54,315 bases of DNA from Blautia sp. (GTDB lineage Bacteria; Bacillota; Clostridia; Lachnospirales; Lachnospiraceae). The notes beneath the pieces were generated by a model. It ran no database searches. It saw only the letters and a program-made list of their open reading frames with translations, and was not told the DNA's origin. Of this stretch, positions 11,101-54,315 are shown piece by piece. The first letter of the stretch is position 1. Every line of letters begins with the position of its first letter. A program made the position numbers and the translations under genes. The DNA is taken from contig JALFGN010000010.1 in NCBI GenBank assembly GCA_022777285.1, positions 1-54,315 of the forward strand, given 5' to 3'.

Positions 11101-11226
11101 TTCATCCCAACAAATCCGGCGCCAAAGATGTGCCGATGGTTTCGGGGCGGACATGGATGCCGTGCTCAAACAAGAAAAATTTTCTACTTTGATGATTTTA
11201 CAGGAAATCCGAAAGTACTAAGAAAT
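11101..11226 (+). repeat. Palindromic-element family, copy 1 (single arm)
   Basis: From about 11138 to 11226 the sequence matches the right arm of the full-length element at 40085-40173 with few changes: the shared GGGCGGACATGGATG start, the A/T-rich centre and the AAGTACTAAGAAAT end. The central hairpin core and the other arm are missing. It lies between the divergent ylxM and rpn promoters, at the right edge of ylxM and directly upstream of the Rpn-family gene. Confidence 0.85.
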
Positions 11227-27095: not shown

Positions 27096-27351
27096 ACAGG
27101 TACCGGCAAAACGGGAGCAGGGATGTTTGATTTCTGCGGCCCTTAGCAAACGCGCTGCGCTTGAACGGTGCACGGACCGCAGTTCATCCCTGCTGCACCG
27201 TTTTGGGTACCTGTAACAGTCTTTGCTCAATGCTTTTGCAGGAAGTGTTTCGGGGCGGACATGAGATTGCAGTGCGAGTTTTGAAAAATTTTCCTGCCAT
27301 AAAGGATGATCGTCAGGAAATCCTGAAAGCACTGAAATCCCGAATCGGCCG
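27096..27351. repeat. Palindromic-element family, copy 2 (core hairpin plus one arm)
   Basis: This 256-bp stretch matches the reverse complement of 39802-40057 at identical length with only about 11 differences by eye. The 119-bp core (27096-27214) starts ACAGGTACC and ends GGTACCTGT. It can fold into a long hairpin with an inner CTGCGG/CCGCAG stem. The arm that follows corresponds to the left arm of copy 3. The opposite arm is missing. The rest of the gap up to rpmF (27352-27423) is G-rich and shows nothing else. It lies between the rpmF terminator and the lipoprotein promoter. Confidence 0.92.
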
Positions 27352-27423
27352 GAAAAACCGAAAGCGGCGGCCTGCAAGGGGAGGGGATGCGCCCTGCCGG
27401 ATGGGAAACAGGCGTGTGGGGGC

Positions 27424-39701: not shown

Positions 39702-40302
39702 CGGTCCTTTTCTCTGCCGCACCAGACATTTCCCTCATCCCGGGCAGGCATCCGGCAGACGCTGGGACACGCTTATTAAAATATCACATTTTCTTTTTCC
39801 GCGGCCGATTCGGGATTTCAGTGCTTTCAGGATTTCCTGACAATCATCCTTTATGGCAGGAAAATTTTTCAAAACTCACACTGCCATCTCATGTCCGCCC
39901 AGAAACACTTCCTGAAAAAGCATTGAGCAAAGGCTGTTACAGGTACCCAAAACGGTGCAGCAGGGATGAACTGCGGTTCGTGCACCGTTCAAGCGAAGCG
40001 CGTTTGCTAAGGACCGCAGATATCAAACATCCCTGCTCCCGTTTTGCTGGTACCTGTTAAGGCTTTGATTTGCTTTTTCAGGAAGTGTTTCTGGGCGGAC
40101 ATGGATGCAGTGCTCAGACAAGAAAAATTTTCTGCTTTGATGATTTTACAGGAAATCCGAAAGTACTAAGAAATCCCTGCATATGGCCAGCGAAAATAAG
40201 AAAATGTCTTTCTGATTTTTCAATGAAAGAGCGTGTCCCAGCGTCTGCCGGATGCCTGCCCGGAATGAGGGGGGATGTAGGATGCGGCAGAAAAAAGGAC
40301 CG
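39702..40302. repeat. Palindromic-element family, copy 3 (full-length, about 600 bp imperfect palindrome)
   Basis: The two ends are inverted repeats: 39733-39773 matches the complement of 40230-40270 at 40 of 41 positions, and weaker matches continue out to 39702 and 40302. Further in, a 33-nt segment starting TGCTTTTTCAGGAAG is identical in both arms, and the rest of the arms align with gaps. The centre (39939-40057) is a 119-bp hairpin core bounded by ACAGGTACC and GGTACCTGT. The whole can fold into one long stem. It fills nearly all of the 708-bp gap 39629-40336. The right end reaches into the permease terminator. No conserved protein is encoded. Confidence 0.93.
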
Positions 40303-40334
40303 CCTTCCTGCTGGAAGTGCGGCCTTTTTCTGGT
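40289..40334 (-). terminator. Terminator of the ABC permease gene
   Basis: On the minus strand AAAGGCCGC plus CUUCC pairs with GGAAG plus GCGGUCCUUU across an AGCA loop, followed by six U. Its distal arm coincides with the right end of the palindromic element. Confidence 0.85.
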
Positions 40335-40336
40335 TC

Positions 40337-42436
40337 CTATTTCACACATTCGGGATAGTCTCCCTTGATAAAATACACAACGCTATAGCTTTCTCCGATT
40401 CCGTCTTTCCAATAGATCTGAATATTTTTGTTATAATCCGGCATTCTTCCGGTCCAGAATCCATTGCTGTTGTCGTATTCCACTTTTTCCATGATTTCCT
40501 GAATGTCTTTTTCGTCTGTATATTCTGTCGTTTTTACATCGTTCATCTCGTCCACATATTCATCTACTGTAATTTTTTCGATTTCTGCTGCATTCTCTTT
40601 TGTATAAATATGCGCACCTGCCTGTTCCAGTAGTTCCAGGGTTCCTGTAAAGCATGCATAGATGGGTACCTGAATGTCTTCGGTCTCTTCATAATCCACA
40701 TACTGGAACCAGTCTGGTTCATATTTAATCCGAAAGCTTAGATATCCTTCCACTTTCTGTTCTTTTAAATCTGCATATTTCAGACTTTCCCACTCATGTG
40801 TGTAGGTTTTCAGGATATGCTTCATATCCGTTTTTGTAAGTTCCGGTCTTCTTCCGGCACTGTAAATGTCTGTAACAGTAATATCCCGGAGATTTTCTTC
40901 TTTGATGTATTCGACTGGAAGTGTTTTTTCTTTAAATTCCCAGTTGTCGTAGATTTTTCCGATCCGATCGGTCACTTCTTCTGTTTTTTCTACCGTATAA
41001 AATTTATATACGGAGCGGCCGGATTTCCGGTTGTATTTTATATAGAAGGAAATGGTATCTGATTCTGAGTCATCCGCTGCCAATGATTTCAGATTCTTGT
41101 TTTTCTGTTCTTCTACCCCTGCTTTTGCCAGTTCATAAACAGCTGCATATTCTTTTAATTCTACTTTATCCAGATACGCCATGTAGGGTTCCATCTTCTC
41201 TTCATATGGATAAGAGTAAAGGCTGTTCAGTCCATTGATGTAGATCGACATACTTTCCAGTTTGTCTTCTTTTGGGATCCAGGTGTCTACACCAAAGACA
41301 TCCAGTCGTGCACCCAGGATCGTAAGGATCAGTATGCCAATTGCGATTCCGGAAGAGATATTCAGGCGGAAGCATTCTTTCAGATCCATATGATACAGAA
41401 ATTCCACTGCTGCCAGAAGAATCAGTGCAGACAGCAATGTCGCTGCCACAAACCAGACAAAGTTTCTGGATGCATAGGCACTGAGAAGCAGACCGATGAG
41501 GAGCGACAGGGGAACGACCATACCGATCTTGATCACCGGTTCCAGTTTTCGAAATGCAATGGCTTTGTGATAGCTTTCTGTCGGTCTTTTCTTATACGCA
41601 AAGACACACAGTACAAGAATCACCAAAGCAGACACACCAAAGACTGCGACCTCACCGGCAGGGAAACTGCCCATGGAAGTATAATTCGGTTTTGCATCAG
41701 ACAGCAGATTGAAATATCTTAAAACCGGACTGGTCTTATTGGAAATGGCACAAAAGCTGGAAGAATAATACTCTCCTCTTACATTATAGCCGCCTCCGGA
41801 CACGAATGTGTCAAAAAACCGGCTGCCCAGATGATGCAGTGCCTCAAAAATCAAAATTCCATAAATCAGAAAGGTACCATACGCCAGTGTTCCGGTAAAA
41901 AGATTTCCAGTCAGCAGAATGCCCAGCACTGCAAGGTTATAAAAAAGAAGGAACACGACGATATTCGCTGCAAAGCTTCCGGCCAGAACGGTCCACATAC
42001 CGGTAAATCCGGCTCCTTTTGCAATACCGATTCCCATAGCAAACAGAAGATTCAGCCCATAGGGAACGGCAAAGATCAGAATTCCTGCCAGATAATTGCT
42101 GAAAAACAGTGTTTCTCTTCTTACAGGAAGGCTGTGATAAAAGTCTGTTTTCTCTCCGGAATATAAGTACCAGTATCCGGACATGGCGAGCAGATAGGGC
42201 ATTCCAATTACCAGAACGATCATCAGCTCATTTCCATATCCGATGGTCGCTGCCAGTTCCTGATGCATCTGCTGATAAAGCCGGGCGGGTTCTACAAGAT
42301 CCGACACAGAGTCCAGTCTGAGCATCAGCATGACCGGAATCGACAGAAAGAAGGCCAGAAAAGAAAGCACCGTCCATACATTTCTGGAGACCAGATTTTG
42401 TCCTGTTAATTTAATAAAAAAGTTTTTTGATGTCAT
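40337..42436 (-). CDS. ABC transporter permease with DUF6449-type extracytoplasmic region
   Basis: 699 aa. About eight to ten hydrophobic segments lie in residues 20-390 (for example WTVLSFLAFFLSIPVML and LMIVLVIGMPYLLAMSGYWYL). A soluble region of about 300 residues, lysine/glutamate-rich with many tyrosines, fills the C-terminal half and is probably outside the membrane. The start NFFIKLTGQNL and the layout fit YtrC/D-like permeases with a DUF6449 tail. It overlaps the ATPase gene by 26 bp. With the GntR regulator it resembles the ytr-type antibiotic/cell-wall-stress transporters of Bacillus; the substrate is unknown. Confidence 0.8.
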   Translation of the reverse strand: MTSKNFFIKLTGQNLVSRNVWTVLSFLAFFLSIPVMLMLRLDSVSDLVEPARLYQQMHQELAATIGYGNELMIVLVIGMPYLLAMSGYWYLYSGEKTDFYHSLPVRRETLFFSNYLAGILIFAVPYGLNLLFAMGIGIAKGAGFTGMWTVLAGSFAANIVVFLLFYNLAVLGILLTGNLFTGTLAYGTFLIYGILIFEALHHLGSRFFDTFVSGGGYNVRGEYYSSSFCAISNKTSPVLRYFNLLSDAKPNYTSMGSFPAGEVAVFGVSALVILVLCVFAYKKRPTESYHKAIAFRKLEPVIKIGMVVPLSLLIGLLLSAYASRNFVWFVAATLLSALILLAAVEFLYHMDLKECFRLNISSGIAIGILILTILGARLDVFGVDTWIPKEDKLESMSIYINGLNSLYSYPYEEKMEPYMAYLDKVELKEYAAVYELAKAGVEEQKNKNLKSLAADDSESDTISFYIKYNRKSGRSVYKFYTVEKTEEVTDRIGKIYDNWEFKEKTLPVEYIKEENLRDITVTDIYSAGRRPELTKTDMKHILKTYTHEWESLKYADLKEQKVEGYLSFRIKYEPDWFQYVDYEETEDIQVPIYACFTGTLELLEQAGAHIYTKENAAEIEKITVDEYVDEMNDVKTTEYTDEKDIQEIMEKVEYDNSNGFWTGRMPDYNKNIQIYWKDGIGESYSVVYFIKGDYPECVK

Positions 42437-54007: not shown

Positions 54008-54105
54008 GCTTTGCCTCCTTGTTTTTCCTTAGTATATCCATATCCGCCCTCCCTATTCAGCCCGGCTGCATACAAAGATTCGCCCCCGCTCCCGCCCCGC
54101 CCGGA

Positions 54106-54315
54106 ATTTCTTATTTGCCTGGCCATATGGAAGGATTTCTTAGTACTTTCGGATTTCCTGTAAAATCATCGAAGCAGAAAATTTTTCTTGTCTGTGCACT
54201 GCATCCATGCCCGCCCCGCAACACGTCCTGAAAAATCAAAACAAAGCCTTAACAGGTACCAGCAAAACGGGAGCAGGGCTGTTTGATTTCTGCGGCCCTT
54301 AGCAAACGCGCTTCG
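54106..54315. repeat. Palindromic-element family, copy 4 (cut by window end)
   Basis: Read in reverse complement, 54106-54315 matches the right arm and half of the core of copy 3: 54252-54315 is the first 64 bp of the core with a couple of changes from copy 2, and the arm again runs from the GGGCGG segment to AAGTACTAAGAAAT and on to CATATGGCCAG. The other half would lie beyond the window. The rest of this gap (54008-54105) is G/C-rich leader with no gene. Confidence 0.9.

Follow-up and report, generated by a model that had tools for sequence, protein, structure and literature searches.

We analysed a stretch of DNA of 54,315 nucleotides from a Blautia sp. genome (the window), which contains a 601-bp palindrome belonging to a dispersed repeat family. 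We interpret this repeat as a foldback element, dispersed and probably mobile, that keeps a conserved tip while its stems are extended and rewritten through hairpin-primed copying from the adjacent host DNA, and we put the probability of this reading at roughly 0.55. The element is probably non-autonomous, its mobility being something that we infer. Dispersed hairpins are usually defined by common ends; here the tip is common and the ends can be host-made. If the reading is true, such repeats would become longer by taking up the ends of adjacent genes in inverted orientation, giving rise to new long hairpins and altered gene ends. At orthologous loci, they would also preserve natural traces of fold-back DNA synthesis, on which its timing and mechanism could be tested.

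The Blautia palindrome and its copies

Comparison of the arms confirmed that positions 39702-40302 form one long inverted repeat of 601 bp, as the first-pass annotation had described. Segments 39732-39773 and 40230-40271 (42 nt) are 98% complementary, and the outermost segments, 39702-39734 and 40270-40302 (33 nt), are 82% complementary. The 33-nt segment said to be identical in both arms is indeed so, with 39890-39922 pairing to 40071-40103 at 100%. The minimum free energy of the 601-bp palindrome as RNA is -370 kcal/mol. Counted from the apex, the pairing extends for 285 nt to the left and 296 nt to the right.

The genome comprises 2.72 Mb in 146 contigs, of which the window is contig C50. 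A DNA search of this genome gave 24 matches, which we merged by hand into seven full copies (c1-c7, c1 being the palindrome above), one truncated copy (c8) and five fragments; the remaining matches are the same places matched on the opposite strand. Copies were found on other contigs, outside the window, which bears out the proposal of a dispersed family. The seven full cores show pairwise identities of 85.5-96.1%, and the core of c1 spans 39803-40188 on the plus strand (386 bp). A repeat unit of about 600 bp, as first suggested, does not hold, because the homology between most copies ends 186-209 nt from the apex on each side, with single comparisons reaching 236 nt. Within the window, c8 lies at 27096-27357 on the minus strand, with its apex at 27147-27166 and the right part of the core missing, and a fragment from the right arm of the core lies at 11139-11226 on the plus strand (88 bp, 95%).

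Copy c3 is divided between two contig ends. Its part in the window, at 54107-54315 on the minus strand, continues on contig C29, and positions 54093-54315 overlap the start of C29 by 223 bp inside c3 (97.8%, five mismatches). From this overlap, C50 and C29 probably adjoin on the chromosome. The mismatches, the number of contigs and the location of some copies at contig ends could be taken to point to an assembly artefact at hairpins. We give this explanation almost no credence, since the arms within a copy differ by substitutions and indels, and the same layout is seen in many independent assemblies.

The copies occur in mixed contexts, in both orientations and beside tandem as well as divergent neighbouring genes; several lie just past stop codons or terminator-like hairpins, as read by eye. 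At c1, a terminator-like hairpin (40291-40329, minus strand; fold -25.3 kcal/mol, z -4.31) is situated just past the stop of the gene at 40337-42436 (minus strand), and was absent from the output of a consensus scan. The right arm of c1 ends within this hairpin, such that a half-stem forms the arm end, and the left arm repeats only half of the stem. Since only the half-stem recurs in the left arm, the right side of c1 is probably native, although this is a hint and not proof. Just outside the left arm, at 39691-39662 on the minus strand, there is a promoter-like match (11/12) for the gene on the other side.

The outer arms of c1-c7 are copy-specific. In c1, this applies almost wholly to the left (39702-39802) and right (40189-40302) outer arms, both given on the plus strand: the outermost ~85-100 bp per side find only each other as matches in the own genome (E<=0.001), apart from a 19-nt motif, CATCCGGCAGACGCTGGGA. 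All seven full copies end in palindromic arms of their own, with within-copy scores of 59, 41, 28.5, 36, 32, 32 and 42, whereas alignment of outer arms across copies (42 pairs) gave a mean score of 10.9 and a maximum of 19. The outer arms are unrelated even where the cores are 94-96% identical, and a search with the c7 arms against the own genome matched no other place. Thus, the annotated conservation of the arms between copies is correct for the core and incorrect for the outer arms. Pairing ends at nearly the same distance from the apex (left/right) in c2 (244/244 nt), c4 (245/243), c5 (245/244), c6 (247/248) and c7 (246/246), c3 being cut by a contig end in this measurement. Beyond a conserved TTTCTT-like border, the arms measure 46-50 nt in c2-c7, counted by hand. 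This near-fixed length suggests that the added arm was made at or soon after insertion.

Copy-specific arms would follow automatically if the core inserted into the middle of pre-existing palindromes such as terminators, and the copies placed just after stops and terminator-like hairpins fit this idea. We judge it to be very improbable, because nothing other than c1 in the whole 54-kb window forms an inverted pair whose arms reach 40 nt, because arm length is near constant, and because arms can consist of an inverted copy of the coding end of a gene, as described below.

The 19-nt motif lies in the c1 arms at 39749-39767 and 40236-40254, and occurs with 0-3 mismatches at three other places in the own genome (C29:42855, C19:163 and C79:22596). 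Its presence in both c1 and a fragment (L017) had been considered as a trace of inherited arm layers; this was dropped, the motif being a separate small repeat. At C19, it forms the loop of a different hairpin.

Folding of the core and distribution of the apex

RNAalifold predicted 153 pairs for the seven cores, 25 of which contain at least one double change. The inner variable stem, formed in c1 by 39890-39922 on the left and 40071-40103 on the right (plus strand), varies by copy while its pairing is kept. Leaving out this stem, 120 pairs remain, with 99.2% of the cells paired. Nine of these show double changes, compared to 1.7 in shuffles (0/500) and 0-1 with the partner slid, although the fold, being derived from the same seven sequences, is favoured over the slid versions. 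The compensatory changes between copies that had been named as a sign of functional structure are therefore present. Changes to G.U and A.C number 8 and 5, respectively, on pairs predicted for both strands. The apex alone folds no better than shuffled sequences (z -0.25 as RNA, -0.03 as DNA), and the apex hairpin retains a G.U pair on one strand.

The paired changes, the retained G.U pair and an apex that is invariant across genera would be in keeping with a functional structured RNA, in which a conserved loop is carried on stems whose sequence may change provided that pairing is kept, with dispersal by gene duplication. Judged from the sequences, this is improbable: the occurrence is rare and patchy, orientation and context are mixed, the outer arms are unrelated between cores of 94-96% identity, and arms contain host coding sequence. 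Furthermore, Rfam 15 gave no matches in the window at the gathering score, in agreement with the annotation, which knew of no named family that fits, and among 25 sources of related loci Rfam identified two unrelated riboswitches only.

The 20-nt apex, GTTCAAGCGNARCGCGTTTG, is carried by all eight own copies. In c1 it is found at 39987-40006 on the plus strand (GTTCAAGCGAAGCGCGTTTG), and it occurs in other genera. Of 391 genomes sampled from the class, the own genome alone contained the exact apex, at its eight places, and the reversed control gave 0. By DNA search, the own family was detected in 1 of 20 genomes of the genus, and 60 relatives yielded one other match only (32 bp, in genome G016), which was discarded, as it sits in an apparent coding gene. 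A search against other Lachnospiraceae, as the first-pass annotation had advised, was carried out with a covariance model of the core, and matched 3 of 299 family genomes: the own genome, G252 and G224. G252 is 69% identical to c1 over 103 nt (E 4e-5) without the 24 exact apex bases; G224 has the same 24 bases as c1, and carries the apex 17 times, compared to 0 in its eight congeners. There were no matches to the core pattern in a genome-contig collection, to the element in the plasmids and phages searched, or to the viral patterns.

The apex pattern GTTCAAGCGNANCGCGTTTG was found in at least 115 stretches in 84,980 genomes, where about 7.5 matches are expected by chance for 18 fixed bases in 257 Gb, and in 0 viral contigs. 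Selenomonas, Centipeda, Eubacterium, other Clostridia and Bacteroidales MAGs are among the sources of the matches listed. At the free base of GCGNAGCGCG, the 112 distinct matches among those listed have A in 72 cases, C in 19, T in 11 and G in 5; the other 5 differ at the next variable position. Thirteen matches with less than 100 nt on one side were left out of the pairing analysis. Of the 99 with enough flank, 45 pair above the highest score (27) among 300 unrelated pairings, and a further 29, counted by hand, exceed the 99th percentile (14.1) of these. One of the tested Bacteroidales matches passes this percentile. The 25 below the 99th percentile include the Woykebacteria match and three of the four tested Bacteroidales matches. 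The apex tops long hairpins in Selenomonas and Centipeda and in scattered Clostridia, and does so weakly in Bacteroidales. The family is no speciality of the Lachnospiraceae, as the apex occurs in other classes, though rarely. Six matches within the 25 (Hyphomicrobium, Castellaniella, an alphaproteobacterium, Fimbriimonas, a Christensenellaceae bacterium and a Diapherotrites archaeon) were taken as chance.

Pairing outruns the longest left-side homology to another copy of the same genome in 6 of 7 copies of S34M_St_44 and in all 4 copies of AF22-9; for three copies in each genome, this holds on both sides. In S. ruminantium, homology extends past the pairing. The two extents overlap in the copies of S. 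massiliensis, Lapin and G224, with homology often the longer in S. massiliensis and Lapin. Thus, this measure gives no grounds to claim copy-specific arms in these four. The arm lengths of G224 vary, which speaks against a fixed ruler. Short copy-specific ends were seen in Selenomonas, by eye only. In L105 (S. infelix) and L167 (S. massiliensis), similar foreign sequence interrupts the left arm at about the same relative position, and Rfam gave no match for it.

Host-gene sequence in the arms and orthologous loci

We scanned 39 copies for reading frames that enter an arm. This produced 20 rows, mostly uninformative, and three loci of relatives (L196, L195 and L107) at which host-gene sequence in an arm is supported by a protein domain. 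The left arm of L196, which reaches 312 nt, takes in the final 70 coding nt of an RnfB-like gene, the end of which is 242 nt away from the apex; the gene product has a Fer4 match at residues 244-266 of 266. In the gene on the opposite side, the ApbE domain ends at residue 384 of 410. The right arm of L195 (to 340 nt) contains 112 nt of a 5-formyl-THF (5-FTHF) cyclo-ligase gene, with the domain extending to residue 180 of 192. The right arm of L107 contains 58 nt of truA, with the Pfam domain extending to residue 251 of 254 and an NCBIfam TruA model above the cut-off. At each of these loci, one arm encodes the intact, domain-bearing end of a host gene and the other is a decayed inverted copy of it, the native side being the left in L196 and the right in L195 and L107. 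At L205, a weaker case, the YbjN match of the reading frame is borderline (22.4, cut-off 22) and stops short of the arm, and NCBIfam gave no match.

Alignment of the inverted arm to the opposite arm showed 87 of 102 identical bases in L196, 88 of 109 in L195 and 75 of 88 in L205. The arm-pair scores of L196 (48.5) and L195 (48) compare to a cross-copy background with a mean of 25 and a maximum of 42.5. Some arm alignments in G224, those of L205 (35.5) and L202 (40.5), lie within this family-shared background. The score of L107 is 32.5, for which there is no separate background. An arm that is the reverse complement of adjacent host sequence, as in template switching, is seen at L195, L196 and L107, and at L205 as judged by the reading frame only.

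In the mechanism that we propose, the element would move as a folded single strand, either RNA or ssDNA, with the apex as the part that is recognised. Movement is favoured by the patchy distribution, in which a few genomes hold many copies. At the hairpin base, a free 3' end would fold back and be lengthened with the neighbouring host strand as template. Once a strand attached to host DNA by one of its ends had been extended in this manner and later rejoined, the arrangement would be F-element-rc(F)-G, which is the geometry of hairpin-primed template switching. The same copying could rewrite both sides of a stem at once.

Orthologous loci were compared in relatives. L107 and L133 share the interval from a glnQ-like gene (named by eye) to truA, and are 90.7% identical from 74 nt left of the apex through truA. 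Further left, L133 has 16 nt and L107 has 395 nt, which include a second apex and hold an inverted copy of the truA side, adjoining the first apex. Most of the 395-nt stretch is also present in L085. As L107 and L085 have the stretch and L133 lacks it, gain and loss are both possible and no polarity is implied. At the second apex, L085 and L107 are 89-93% identical in the flanks and 64% in the cores. Of the 79 stem pairs, 40 are the same, 31 differ in both partners and 8 in a single partner, broken pairs being underestimated because the fold was predicted from these two sequences. In L126 and L129, 60 of 60 pairs are unchanged. L098 and L152 represent the same locus in two species with the whole hairpin inverted: the flanks are 86.6% identical on the minus strand over 2.3 kb, and the element is 93.6% identical on the plus strand.

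These comparisons bear on the timing of the copying. Growth in place only, in which the repeat spreads by an unrelated route and template switching during replication later lengthens, corrects and inverts its hairpins, would draw on a process reported to extend stems, to make multiple compensatory changes and to invert loops, in the part of the source considered (PMC8794818). The variable arm lengths of G224, the 31 of 79 rewritten pairs of L085/L107 and the inverted hairpin of L098/L152 favour such later growth. The near-constant arm ends in five own copies and the unchanged pairs of the orthologous L126/L129 arms argue against it, and we regard it as unlikely. The same two observations favour copying at insertion. 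Tentatively, this could be taken further, to a new class of mobile element in which a folded strand is recognised by its 20-nt apex and the insertion itself copies a measured stretch of the target backward, as host-made palindromic ends; it would amount to a transposon lacking ends of fixed sequence.

Relation to known repeats and search for a partner

We found no description of long inverted repeats of Lachnospiraceae, of palindromic repeats of Selenomonas or of the apex in the open-licence literature. A dispersed extragenic palindrome as such is a known kind of sequence. An apex common to several classes, together with host-derived arms, is not a defining feature of the REP, MITE and Rfam families considered. 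MITEs have ends that are common to all copies and flanked by direct target repeats. The foldback element with host-copied stems that we favour is similar to MITEs in being non-coding, dispersed and built as an inverted repeat, but each own copy has different, unrelated outer ends, and the ends of the common core lie inside the palindrome. No direct target repeats were recognised by eye at the flanks of the own copies outside the arms.

REPs are hairpins of 20-40 bp, one end of which carries a GTAG or CGTC tag, according to the sections of the two sources used here (PMC8266576, PMC3733652). As described there, the REP, BIME and REPIN sequences associated with RAYT (TnpA_REP) resemble the present element in being dispersed extragenic hairpins, some of them species-specific, that are recognised in folded form and thought to be non-autonomous mobile DNA. 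Unlike the REPs of these accounts, the present hairpins are mostly far longer, with a core of 386 bp; the apex is the conserved part, and the ends differ by copy and have no common tag. The reverse-complement copies beside a hairpin, the multi-base compensatory changes and the loop inversions are also those of template switching, or quasipalindrome correction, as portrayed in the excerpted source (PMC8794818). However, that is a mutation process, with short stems in the same account, while here arms of hundreds of nucleotides recur around one apex. Mitochondrial repetitive hairpin elements are likewise dispersed, and mobility has been suggested for them, with an RNA route in one case, but they are organellar and short. 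In the sponge case, as given in the portion of the source consulted (PMC2800124), the stems are conserved and the loops differ, the reverse of the present element.

No transposase was seen in the element, in agreement with the annotation. An empty c1 site was sought in relatives of the genus, which gave only short diverged matches. Near the 112 listed apex matches we identified no convincing partner gene, the largest cluster of neighbouring frames comprising 9 loci. The apex could serve as bait for a protein that recognises it. The Y1 transposase domain (PF01797) had 0 matches in G224, which carries 17 apices, and three partial matches over the cut-off in the own genome; in all, it was present in 8 of 20 genomes. 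RVT_1 was found in both apex genomes, but of the 18 other genomes searched 16 had it as well, 8 of these 18 having been tested for the apex and the rest by DNA search of the element only.
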